Shown: one piece after another, positions 2,794-7,208 of the stretch | Layout of the letters: every line of letters begins with the position of its first letter | How positions within the stretch are numbered: position 1 is the first letter of the stretch | Source: a virus | IMG/VR virus record: IMGVR_UViG_3300042362_000024 | Location: 1 to 34,747 of that record | DNA: 34,747 bases | Direction: 5' to 3' (one strand) | Position numbers and translations under genes: made by a program | The notes under the pieces: generated by a model | What the model saw: the letters and a program-made list of their open reading frames with translations, nothing else | What the model was told of the DNA's origin: nothing | Databases searched by the model: none

Positions 2794-3190
2794 AGATAGG
2801 CTCCGGTATGACGATGCCCATTTGGGCGCACCGTGTTTCAAGAAACAATAGGTAGTCACTAAATTCTTGTTTGGTCAGTTTGCTGGAACGCTTGAGGGGC
2901 CGCATACGCTTACGCCCAAACCCTTCCAGCGTCTCCCAGCCAAAACATTCCCCAAGGAAATACTCGTGCAAGTCGTCCCGCGTCCAACCGTGCAATGCCT
3001 CGCCGCCGGCCTCTAGGATCGCGGGATAACACACGCCCCACAAAAACGAGTTCTGCTGGTTGGTGCGTGGCTTTTTCCACTCCGACACCTCGACGCACCA
3101 CGCCCGGTCTGACGACAGACCCTGCACCATACGTGCAGCAGCCACGGCCAACTGTTCTGGCGTCGTACCCTTGGGGAATATGCGTTTCAC
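2780..3190 (-). CDS. ninB: NinB-like recombination protein
   Basis: The start is the GTG at 3190, overlapping the upstream TGA (GTGA), with AGAGG upstream; a TTG at 3208 is possible but less likely. The 136-aa product carries WCVEVSEWKKPRTNQQNSFLWG, then LHEYFLGECFG and SSKLTKQEFSDYLLFLETRCAQMGIVIPEP, the order of blocks in lambda NinB/Orf-like recombination mediators. NinB binds single-stranded DNA and helps annealing proteins load in lambda. Its place near ERF, exonuclease and SSB-like genes fits. Family call is by pattern. Confidence 0.75.
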   Translation of the reverse strand: MKRIFPKGTTPEQLAVAAARMVQGLSSDRAWCVEVSEWKKPRTNQQNSFLWGVCYPAILEAGGEALHGWTRDDLHEYFLGECFGWETLEGFGRKRMRPLKRSSKLTKQEFSDYLLFLETRCAQMGIVIPEPIYDAN

Positions 3191-3873
3191 CGGCTGGCCT
3201 CTAGCCAATCACGGGCGTATTCCACTTCCATGTAGTCACGGAACCACGGGCCACCGCGAGTGAAATGGACAGCGATAGGGTTGGGGCAGTGGTCGCGTGT
3301 ATACCAGCCTTCAAGGTAGTTCCACGCTATCGGCAACTCCCCGATTACGTCATCGGTGAGCCAATTAAAGCGGTGCAGATACATACCCGATTCACGATTG
3401 ACCACCTCGGGCGTCAATGCCTTGACTTGTGGATGGCTACAGTTGATAAACATGAACGATGACCAGTTCTTACGTGGATACAAATGCTGCGCCTTGTTGT
3501 CCATTTTGACGGCCTCGGTAGGCCGGTAATCGTGCTGTACCACGAAGCACGCTTTTGCCCCGTCCATGTAGTCGGTGATCGCGGCGATGTCCCCCCGAAA
3601 AAGAAAATCGCAGTCGCAAAACAAGGCCCAGCCGTCATACCCGGCGAGGTGTGGGGTCAAAAAACGCGTAAACGAAAACTCGGTAGACGACAGCGGATCA
3701 TACTCACGCCAGTAAAGTCCTTGCTCACGAAGTTCTGACTGTTTGATGGGCTGTATATCCACCGGGATGCTGGCGTGCTTCAAGATGCTTTTGCGGCATA
3801 CCTGATACGCAATGTCCTCGCGGCTATCCCAGCCGACAAACACGCGCAAATCAAAACGGGATGGCGTCGTCAT
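3187..3873 (-). CDS. Glycosyltransferase, GT-A fold with DxD (DCD) motif
   Basis: The 228-aa protein starts at ATG 3873, 23 bp inside the end of the SSB-like gene. It has an N-terminal Rossmann-like start (LRVFVGWDSREDIAYQVCRKSI), the nucleotide-sugar/metal-binding D87-C-D89 motif in LFCDCDFLF, KNWSSFMFINC (about 135-145), and a C-terminal AVHFTRGGPWF. This matches glycosyltransferases related to GT8/LPS sugar transferases that occur as cargo genes in phages. It interrupts an otherwise recombination-gene operon, so it may be a moron changing host surface sugars or modifying phage components. The acceptor is unknown. Confidence 0.83.
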   Translation of the reverse strand: MTTPSRFDLRVFVGWDSREDIAYQVCRKSILKHASIPVDIQPIKQSELREQGLYWREYDPLSSTEFSFTRFLTPHLAGYDGWALFCDCDFLFRGDIAAITDYMDGAKACFVVQHDYRPTEAVKMDNKAQHLYPRKNWSSFMFINCSHPQVKALTPEVVNRESGMYLHRFNWLTDDVIGELPIAWNYLEGWYTRDHCPNPIAVHFTRGGPWFRDYMEVEYARDWLEASR

Positions 3874-5862: not shown

Positions 5863-6148
5863 AATCGTCATCTCCTGCGTTGAGGTTGATCCAGCACCGT
5901 CGCAGCAAATCATCTGATTCAGCCGGCTCAAGGTAGTCAAGGTCGGCCTTGATGCGGACGGACTCGTAGTCGTTGCGATCAACGGCGCGCGACTCGCAGC
6001 CTTCTGGGTAGCAGCCAAGCAGCCACAGGTCGGTGATTTCGATGTCGTCAGCGACGTTGGCGTTGGGATCGCCGGGGTGGCAGTCGTAGGTGACTTCAGC
6101 GTGCCAATAGACGCCGAGGGCGTAGATTTTGGTTTCAAAAGTGGGCAT
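5852..6148 (-). CDS. Acidic early protein, first gene of leftward operon
   Basis: The ATG at 6148 has GGAG 9 nt upstream (GGAGCAACAGAT). The 98-aa product is strongly acidic, with about 24 Asp/Glu against 8 Lys/Arg, and includes PTFETKIYALGVYWHAEVTYD and a GCYPEGCESR block with paired cysteines. As the first gene behind the leftward promoter it would be the first early product made. Small acidic early proteins of phages are often DNA mimics or enzyme inhibitors, but nothing here proves that. No family recognised. Confidence 0.8.
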   Translation of the reverse strand: MPTFETKIYALGVYWHAEVTYDCHPGDPNANVADDIEITDLWLLGCYPEGCESRAVDRNDYESVRIKADLDYLEPAESDDLLRRCWINLNAGDDDYEI

Positions 6149-6181
6149 ATCTGTTGCTCCGTTGTGTTTATCAACGAGGCC

Positions 6182-6209
6182 AGTTTAGCAACCTATACCC
6201 CCATGTCAA
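6182..6209 (-). promoter_or_regulatory. Leftward early promoter (sigma70-type)
   Basis: On the minus strand a perfect -35 hexamer TTGACA (6204-6209) is followed after a 16-nt spacer by TAAACT (6182-6187, 4 of 6 to consensus). It points at the acidic early gene that starts at 6148 and would drive the whole leftward arm. It overlaps the direct repeats at 6195-6219, so repressor binding there would block it. Confidence 0.75.
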
Positions 6210-6219
6210 TACCCCTATG
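6195..6219. promoter_or_regulatory. Tandem 11-bp direct repeats, candidate operator
   Basis: ATACCCCCATG (6195-6205) and ATACCCCTATG (6209-6219) are 10 of 11 identical and start 14 bp apart. One lies in the leftward promoter spacer and the other just upstream of its -35. The adjacent gene codes for a Cro/YdaS-like protein, so these are natural candidates for its binding sites. Function is inferred from position. Confidence 0.55.
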
Positions 6220-6238
6220 CAAAAAAAGTTTAGGCCGC

Positions 6239-6244
6239 TATAGT
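6239..6244 (+). promoter_or_regulatory. Candidate -10 box for the cro-like gene
   Basis: TATAGT matches the sigma70 -10 consensus in 5 of 6 positions and ends 7 bp before the ATG at 6252, which would place transcription start at or next to that ATG. No good -35 is seen 16-18 bp upstream, as for promoters that need an activator. No ribosome site precedes the ATG, so the mRNA may be leaderless. Confidence 0.45.
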
Positions 6245-6251
6245 GCCGTCC

Positions 6252-6419
6252 ATGGACATCCAGAAGTTGTTAAAGCGGTACGGCAGCCAGTCGGCAATGG
6301 CCGATGCGTTTGGCGTAACCAAGGGCGCTGTAAGCCAATGGGTCAAGGCAGGGGCGATTCCTGCGGCCCGGGTATGGCAGTACAAGGCAGGGTTGGTAAA
6401 GCCCCAGAAGGGCCGCTAA
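6252..6419 (+). CDS. Cro/YdaS-like helix-turn-helix repressor
   Basis: A 55-aa protein, too short for a 60-residue cutoff. It starts DIQKLLKRYGSQSAMADAFG and continues VTKGAVSQWVKAGAIPAAR, the classic helix-turn-helix of the YdaS/Cro group (SQSAMADAFGVTKGAVSQWV at about 12-31, followed by IPAARV). It ends in a basic tail (KPQKGR). It diverges from the leftward operon across a 103-bp gap holding a promoter and repeats. It most likely controls that switch; with no integrase or second repressor found, a Cro-like role in shutting off early genes is more likely than lysogeny. No Shine-Dalgarno sequence is seen. Confidence 0.88.
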   Translation: MDIQKLLKRYGSQSAMADAFGVTKGAVSQWVKAGAIPAARVWQYKAGLVKPQKGR

Positions 6420-6706
6420 TGCGGTTATACGGGGCCAGAAACGACAAAGCCCACCAAGCCTTTATGGTGGGCCTTGACGCGGCAGGGGGGCTGCCATTAC
6501 GCTTGAAGTGCGAGTTAAGCGTGATGCGGACTGTATTGGACTGTTCTAGTCCTGTCAAGCACCCCACCACGCCCAACCTCTCGGGCATCTTGGTCGGGGA
6601 AACTACGCGCAAGATGACCTTAAACCTACACCGGGGCAGCCAACCTGTAGGTGCGCGGCGTCAGTCGGGAAGCGCAAATGGCAACGGGGTAACCCGTGAA
6701 AAGTAG
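6419..6706 (+). CDS. Doubtful 95-aa ORF after the cro-like gene
   Basis: The ATG overlaps the cro-like stop (TAATG), so translation is possible. The 95-aa product (RLYGARNDKAHQAFMVGLDAAGG at its start, Arg/Ser/Thr/Gly-rich later) does not look like its neighbours. The underlying DNA holds several hairpins (6449-6472, 6481-6495, 6538-6552) and is also open on the other strand. I think a structured noncoding region is at least as likely as a gene. Confidence 0.3.
   Translation: MRLYGARNDKAHQAFMVGLDAAGGLPLRLKCELSVMRTVLDCSSPVKHPTTPNLSGILVGETTRKMTLNLHRGSQPVGARRQSGSANGNGVTREK
6449..6472. terminator. 8-bp hairpin behind the cro-like gene, terminator-like
   Basis: GCCCACCA (6449-6456) and TGGTGGGC (6465-6472) are a perfect inverted repeat around an 8-nt loop, beginning 29 bp after the cro-like stop. 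The following CCTT is too poor in T for a strong intrinsic terminator. It may be an attenuator or part of a structured RNA. Confidence 0.4.
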
Positions 6707-6725
6707 CCGACAGCGGATGGCTCCG

Positions 6726-6798
6726 TCAGTCATCACTCCGCACGATCCCATTGAGGCGTTCCTACGTCTCAACCGTGCGGATTCACCATCAGTCATCA
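6726..6798. other. Noncoding structured element: nested inverted repeats flanked by direct repeats
   Basis: TCAGTCATCA occurs at 6726-6735 and again at 6789-6798. Between them TCCGCACG (6737-6744) pairs with CGTGCGGA (6774-6781), and nested inside TTGAGGCG (6751-6758) pairs with CGTCTCAA (6765-6772; one G-T) around loop TTCCTA. The outer stem is separated from the inner by 6 nt on one side and 1 nt on the other. No T tract follows on either strand. The 6707-6824 gap has no convincing gene; a 30-aa ORF at 6717-6809 is probably accidental. Confidence 0.6.
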
Positions 6799-6824
6799 GG
6801 TCTGTATGACCTTAAAGGTAAGAC

Positions 6825-7208
6825 ATGGGAGATGAAATTCTTTATCGGAAACAGGAAACCAGTCCTAAAGACATCAACCACGAGCGTAGCGAGTTTTACG
6901 ACAGACAGGCTATGGCTGGGTGGGAACAGTCGTTTAAGGAAGGGTCACTGCAACGGTTACGGTACTTGGATGCGGTGTTGTGCCGAGTGACCGATCCCGA
7001 TGAGGTGGAGAGGTTGAAAGGCCGGGTGGGTGAACTCATCCGCGAAACTAACCCTGCTGCGATTCTCGGTGACCCGCACCTTGTAACGATGGTGCGTTGG
7101 TTGTTTACTGAAAAAGGATTGGTGCGACTGCGTGAAAGGGCTAAACAAACGCACAAGGGTGTGGTGGCAGATATGGCTGATTCGCTGCATCAACGAGGCA
7201 CGGGATGA
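6825..7208 (+). CDS. Hypothetical 127-aa early protein
   Basis: The ATG at 6825 has a purine-rich AAAGGTAAG upstream. The product is charged and mostly helical: DINHERSEFYDRQAMAGWEQ near the N-terminus, then VTDPDEVERLKGRVGELIRE, and a middle block GDPHLVTMVRWLFTEKGLVRLRERAKQTHKGVV. Its stop overlaps the start of the VRR-NUC nuclease gene (ATGA), so the two are co-translated. No family recognised; association with the nuclease suggests a DNA-related role. Confidence 0.72.
   Translation: MGDEILYRKQETSPKDINHERSEFYDRQAMAGWEQSFKEGSLQRLRYLDAVLCRVTDPDEVERLKGRVGELIRETNPAAILGDPHLVTMVRWLFTEKGLVRLRERAKQTHKGVVADMADSLHQRGTG

Follow-up and report, generated by a model that had tools for sequence, protein, structure and literature searches.

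A structured element at the head of a rightward operon

The window analysed here is the whole 34,747-nucleotide stretch of viral DNA held as IMG/VR record IMGVR_UViG_3300042362_000024. Within it, a Cro/YdaS-like DNA-binding protein gene and a 127-aa gene downstream of it flank an interval (Table 1) that an earlier reading of this DNA, made from the sequence only, had taken for a gap without a convincing gene. We agree with this description, as the 95-aa ORF at 6419-6706 has no family match in Pfam or PHROGs and the interval is made up of covarying hairpins. The ORF is not a gene: the hairpins of the interval change their sequence completely among relatives whilst keeping their pairing.

At the 3' end of this interval, two nested inverted repeats within 45 nt, bracketed by identical boxes and without the T tract of a terminator, had been described, and we recovered each of these features. 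Both boxes, R1 and R2, read TCAGTCATCA without mismatch; the window contains this 10-mer at these two places and nowhere else, and the repeat can be extended to 12 matching bases out of 13. The structure folds beyond chance both as DNA (z = -4.7 for 6726-6798) and as RNA (z = -3.7 for the + strand of 6706-6826, equalled by 0 of 200 shuffles). A scan of the + strand from 6150 to 6900 for a stem-loop with a same-strand T tract revealed no intrinsic terminator, the nearest terminator-like site lying on the minus strand (H0, Table 1). Across 36 diverse sequences, pairing in the outer helix reaches 98% and five of its eight pairs show two-sided changes; its variants among relatives include CCGCACG/CGTGCGG, CTGCACG/CGTGCAG and CCGTGCG/CGCACGG.

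Table 1 Features of the locus, in window coordinates.
Feature	Position	Strand	Description
Cro/YdaS-like DNA-binding protein gene	6252-6419	+	Upstream neighbour; P22_Cro 2.2e-9, YdaS_toxin 2e-9
H0 hairpin, leftward terminator	6439-6473	-	T-rich tail; unit start AAACGACAAA; terminator scan 6476-6445
Promoter-like TTGACG-N18-TACGCT	6474-6503	+	Inverted repeat in spacer (6481-6495) covaries
Leader helix P1	6519-6523/6568-6572	+	Encloses hairpin 6538-6552 and invariant GTCAA 6554-6558
Convergent promoter-like TTGACA-N17-TACAGT	6530-6558	-	Consensus promoter scan
Middle hairpin	6584-6619	+	Conserved GNRA-type loop; covariation analysis
Long-range pair	G6609-C6631	+	GC 40, AT 5
Pseudoknot domain	6625-6711	+	All five helices with two-sided changes, 87-100% paired; G-test covariation
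Pseudoknot-domain stems	6625-6630/6646-6651, 6652-6656/6672-6676, 6684-6688/6693-6697	+	
Pseudoknots	6639-6642/6679-6682 and 6664-6668/6707-6711	+	
A1-R1 hairpin	6716-6735	+	GATGGCT 6716-6722 with AGTCATC 6728-6734; R1 box 6726-6735
Nested hairpin	6737-6781	+	45 nt; outer stem 8 bp, inner stem 9 bp with one G.U
Outer stem TCCGCACG/CGTGCGGA	6737-6744/6774-6781	+	Window sequence
Inner stem TTGAGGCGT/ACGTCTCAA	6751-6759/6764-6772	+	One G.U; loop TCCT
R2 box	6789-6798	+	3' limit of conservation; equals R1 in nearly every relative
127-aa downstream gene	6825-7208	+	Short member of initiator-like family

The cumulative GC skew reaches its minimum near 6000 (window 6000-6500), where gene direction changes; such a minimum fits an origin but also the switch in gene direction. 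Elsewhere, the minus strand of the window carries a tRNA-Gln (TTG) gene at 1395-1468, as well as genes for a ferredoxin-family moron protein (phrog_3704) and a glycosyltransferase-like protein (1579-2145 and 3187-3873), the latter with relatives in Synechococcus, Pelagibacter and Caulobacter phages. Contigs L247-L252 carry close relatives of the window's capsid gene (71-85% identity); they were binned into unrelated MAGs of Acidithiobacillales, Armatimonadetes, Chloroflexota, Lysobacterales and Paludibacter and are probably misbinned phage contigs. As this scatter of phage contigs defeats a host inference via the capsid protein, no host is claimed.

A large covarying RNA with the hairpin at its 3' end

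The hairpin and its boxes had been presented as a free-standing element; instead, a large structured + strand RNA spanning approximately 6510-6798 ends with them. Of the earlier suggestion of a small structured RNA, the RNA itself stands, given its compensatory changes, whilst its size is about 290 nt rather than 73. Relatives were gathered from a starting set of 19, found through the 127-aa downstream gene, and then by pattern scans for the hairpin and repeated box, for which counts cover the matches listed and are lower bounds; chance matches were removed by demanding conserved neighbouring sequence. When aligned, the relatives share one conserved unit that starts at AAACGACAAA (window 6439), ends exactly at the second box and varies in length from 334 to 380 nt in steps that are not triplets. 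Its boundaries are sharp and the genes flanking it vary. In one locus (L002:1100-2050), an insert of ~930 bp carrying a 62-aa HTH-like ORF and a 251-aa ORF lies right after the second box and before the downstream gene.

Across 36 diverse homologues and 49 pairs, including two pseudoknots, 93.5% of cells are paired. Two-sided changes affect 27 of these 49 pairs, in 221 cells as compared to 71 when shuffled and 11-29 with slid partners; since such counts come from related sequences they overstate independence, and the slid controls together with repeated pair exchanges are the safer evidence. A column-by-column, unsupervised covariation analysis of 88 sequences revealed helices that are 90-100% paired with two to four pair types, some of them crossing, and the covariance model scores divergent variants at 131-195 bits. 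Extensive compensatory changes are present in more than 100 distinct relatives, found in uncultured viral contigs. Folding favours the + strand over the minus strand in 62 of 63 pseudoknot domains, as it does in 52 of 54 hairpin variants, and we therefore read the RNA rightwards; the same strand-specific folding rules out a minus-strand RNA for the main domain. The covariation and coding check proposed with the first description was run on these relatives and found pairings kept through compensation in a noncoding region. The compensatory, strand-specific changes identify the element as a structured noncoding RNA.

By sequence comparison, this RNA is a new family or class of large, strongly covarying phage RNA with no known relative. 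Amongst the covariance models of Rfam 15, the gathering score was reached by tRNA only and hits with E values of 0.78-5 look like chance; neither GOLLD nor ROOL nor group I/II introns gave a match, and no split gene was seen. No homologue of the region was found in isolated phages and plasmids, the box-hairpin-box pattern had no exact match in bacterial genomes, and a covariance model search of 398 genomes of one phylum returned one partial match of 20.9 bits, which we treated as noise. A literature search found no description of this RNA. Some variants contain GTTAGGC, which is like integron attC, with no other attC feature.

Two boxes that match each other within each phage

Pattern matching picked at least 126 distinct units; in each of these except L277, a false pick, at least eight bases are identical between the two boxes. 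Box types besides TCAGTCATC include AACGGTCATC, TCAGGTTTG, AAGGCTCA, AAGGCCCATCA, TCAGTCATA and ACAGTCATA, as well as CAGTCACA, AAGGTCATA, AAGGTCAAA and AAGGGCATA, and the rule that boxes differ between phages yet equal each other is seen, besides the window, in L204, L208, L209, L235, L263 and L280. Because the boxes match each other though their sequence differs between phages, we conclude that their identity is maintained, whilst their spacing ranges from about 60 to 74 nt. A target-site duplication was considered as the source of R and rejected, as R1 = R2 persists through sequence change.

Two arrangements might underlie this rule. The A1-R1 hairpin is paired in 94% of cells with few two-sided changes (36 homologues), and either R1 or R2 could pair with GATGGCT, giving two equal alternative folds, except in the TCAGGTTTG type, in which the A1-R pairing is lost. 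A shared partner for both boxes is the other possibility; no convincing partner sequence for R was found elsewhere in the phage or in the sampled loci.

A promoter-like 5' module precedes the RNA

The conserved unit opens with the H0 hairpin, which is conserved in 88 sequences and folds better on the minus strand in 29 of 36 variants. Immediately after it, TTGACG is followed by TANNNT at a distance of 17 or 18 in all 87 sequences, with a variable middle to the second hexamer, a promoter-like arrangement that resembles the sigma-70 pattern. A stricter promoter consensus scan did not report this forward element. The inverted repeat within its spacer covaries, an unusual trait in a promoter. We infer that the RNA is transcribed, with a start near 6510. 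On the minus strand, the -10 motif TANNNT of the convergent element is found in 51 of 87 relatives, and this promoter together with H0 would yield a putative antisense RNA of ~85 nt over the 5' end of the RNA. Forward element, reverse element and leftward terminator may correspond to the promoter layout of a ColE1-type RNA-primed replicon.

Pairing in leader helix P1 stands at 93-97%, with exchanges of GC/AT and CG/GC, and the arms of the helix pair more strongly with those of their own phage than when swapped between phages; complementarity of the -10 region to the leader is less consistent than this helix. A reading of the 5' part solely as a four-way RNA junction (TTGAC/GTCAA) was rejected, as TANNNT stays at 17-18 even if unpaired.

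The RNA shares its operon slot with DUF1376 and with a second RNA

At the start of the rightward operon lies a modular slot. Behind the 5' module (terminator, promoter-like element and leader helix), it holds either this RNA, a second structured RNA or a DUF1376 gene, and the same downstream operon continues after any of the three. Two loci without the RNA (L018 and L019) keep H0, the promoter and the leader helix, L018 also retaining the cro gene, and continue with a 156-aa ORF and then the same small gene. This ORF matches DUF1376 (1.7e-20) and 'primosomal protein' families of PHROGs, 'primosomal' being the label of PHROGs for a domain, PF07120, that is of 'unknown function' in Pfam. The small downstream gene family also directly follows DUF1376 in L291, L298, L303, L318, L354 and L288. 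Long members of this family match the C-terminal half of replication initiators, and the gene in the window is a short form without the initiator-like part. Within phrog_6451 (primosomal), residues 1-139 are matched by the DUF1376 ORF and residues 179-257 by the long downstream genes, which also match residues 222-317 of phrog_678 ('replication initiation O-like'). Owing to the split matches to phrog_6451, the RNA can be placed at the position of the N-terminal half of a two-part initiator.

A scan using the 5' module only recovered 92 distinct modules: this RNA comes next in 55, the second RNA in 22 and DUF1376 in 7, and 8 are cut off; three of the 55 were assigned by eye on the sequences, as was the division of the rest. 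Across the loci compared (194, 40 and 19), the three cassettes never overlap, the 19 including several duplicates of one contig and two loci unrelated to the module. DUF1376 (PF07120) was found in none of 30 RNA-bearing viral records and in all five others, the RNA in none of the five DUF1376 records, and neither Phage_rep_O (PF04492) nor a tyrosine integrase in 27 records, whilst a DnaB-like helicase occurs in one RNA-bearing record; as viral records may be fragments of uncertain completeness, these absences are not proof, and an unrecognised initiator could exist.

The second structured RNA is ~200 nt long, runs from CAGCCCCTCGACATGGG to CCGAGCAT and occupies this slot too, after the shared leader, with clear covariation (L301:2395-2660 on the minus strand, L304:150-340 on the + strand, L290, L314, L323 and L344, among others). 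It is unrelated to the first family and has no match in Rfam, intron models included. A nuclease gene often sits right after it, either HNH-type (L290, L344, L326) or DUF559-type (L304, L293).

A candidate substitute for a replication initiator

In ColE1, replication relies on a structured primer transcript, RNA II, which has its own promoter and is opposed by a convergent antisense unit with a terminator (RNA I), and no initiator protein is involved. The explanation that we favour, to which we give slightly less than an even chance, is that the phage RNA takes over the contribution of DUF1376, or of the initiator, to starting phage DNA replication with host enzymes. Once made from the TTGACG promoter, the transcript would fold and remain at or near its own DNA, where it might act as a primer or as a platform on which the host replicative helicase lands. 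Its simplest version, a primer or R-loop used by host enzymes, would also suit the antisense unit, since a short antisense RNA made between the convergent promoter and the leftward terminator could restrain the RNA, much as in plasmid copy-number control. With more reserve, we propose that a structured RNA may have replaced the N-terminal, DNA-binding half of the initiator, protein and RNA being interchangeable cassettes with at least two unrelated RNAs amongst them. A shared slot does not prove a shared function, and an initiator substitute does not account for the R1 = R2 rule.

The sequence-only reading had been drawn to a cis-acting origin served by host proteins, for which the DUF1376 slot and the lack of a recognised initiator are circumstantial support, whereas the strand-specific G.U pairs favour an RNA over a DNA site. 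The likeness to ColE1 is a works-like analogy only, in a structured transcript with a promoter-like element of its own, a putative convergent antisense unit with a terminator, and the lack of a recognised initiator protein: the window RNA has no sequence or Rfam match to RNA II/RNA I, it sits in a phage operon leader, the origin here is putative, and the putative antisense RNA would overlap the window transcript by only ~15-20 nt. With the primosomal/O-like module of DUF1376 (PF07120), the RNA phages have in common the operon slot, the upstream leader and the downstream gene family; the RNA replaces the protein, and the two were never found together in the records tested.

The main alternative, possible if rather unlikely, is that the RNA serves the long rightward operon as a cis-acting leader which modifies RNA polymerase (antitermination) or senses a signal by switching pairings, either between A1 and R1 or R2, or involving the leader helix or an upstream repeat. 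It lies on the strand of the downstream operon, a short distance 5' of the first gene and, in the window, directly after cro, and R1 = R2 permits two equal alternative pairings with GATGGCT. Antitermination sites such as HK022 put and lambda nut also lie just after cro at the operon head; the window RNA is likewise structured and just 3' of cro, but put sites are much smaller, there is no match between them, and the window RNA is absent in close DUF1376 relatives. The immunity leader of P4 contains repeats (seqA, seqB, seqC) able to pair with one partner, as the boxes of the window RNA can, but the order here is A1-R1-hairpin-R2, there is no CI RNA and the A1 pairing is not universal, failing in the TCAGGTTTG variants. 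The Rfam search, moreover, gave no match to an antitermination or riboswitch family. The DUF1376 phages also weigh against a cis-acting leader: they share the leader module and the downstream genes and manage without the RNA, which the operon therefore does not generally need.

We consider it improbable that the RNA acts in trans, as a noncoding RNA for host take-over or counter-defence, as a sponge or as a GOLLD/ROOL-like RNA-only assembly, with R1 and R2 as target-binding copies. Such a role would suit a fold as large and ornate as this one, with its pseudoknots and GNRA-type loops, and R1 = R2 despite sequence change is what one would expect if a single partner meets both boxes, but the sampled loci yielded no convincing partner, a discrete RNA would have to be processed as no terminator was found 3' of R2 in the window, and the exchange with DUF1376 in one operon slot is left unexplained. 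GOLLD and ROOL, large structured phage-associated RNAs known from comparative genomics (PMC12286853, PMC2864571), are the nearest in spirit; the window RNA is smaller and holds a fixed operon slot that it shares with a protein gene.

A self-splicing or otherwise mobile ribozyme that invaded the slot, leaving R1 and R2 as its insertion trace, is more improbable still. The sharp unit boundaries would fit, as would the HNH or DUF559 nuclease gene that often accompanies the alternative RNA and is typical of homing introns, but no nuclease gene directly follows the RNA described here, neither side shows an interrupted gene, no group I or group II intron model matches even at E values of 3-5, and the two boxes stay equal as the phages diverge, whereas a target duplication would decay. 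Least credible is a DNA-level site (a cruciform origin or a protein-binding or packaging site), for although the nested inverted repeats are stable as DNA and the flanking repeats are iteron-like, pairs are kept by G.U on the + strand (for example AGGCG..CGTCT), box spacing is free and the pseudoknots covary; the packaging or recombination site raised earlier found no support.

Taken together, the swap of cassettes, with promoter and leader left as they are, suggests that an initiator protein can be replaced by an RNA. This reading of the RNA as an initiator substitute opens a way to how small tailed phages without a recognisable initiator begin DNA replication, and phages of a single group with different cassettes in the slot provide a natural comparison set.
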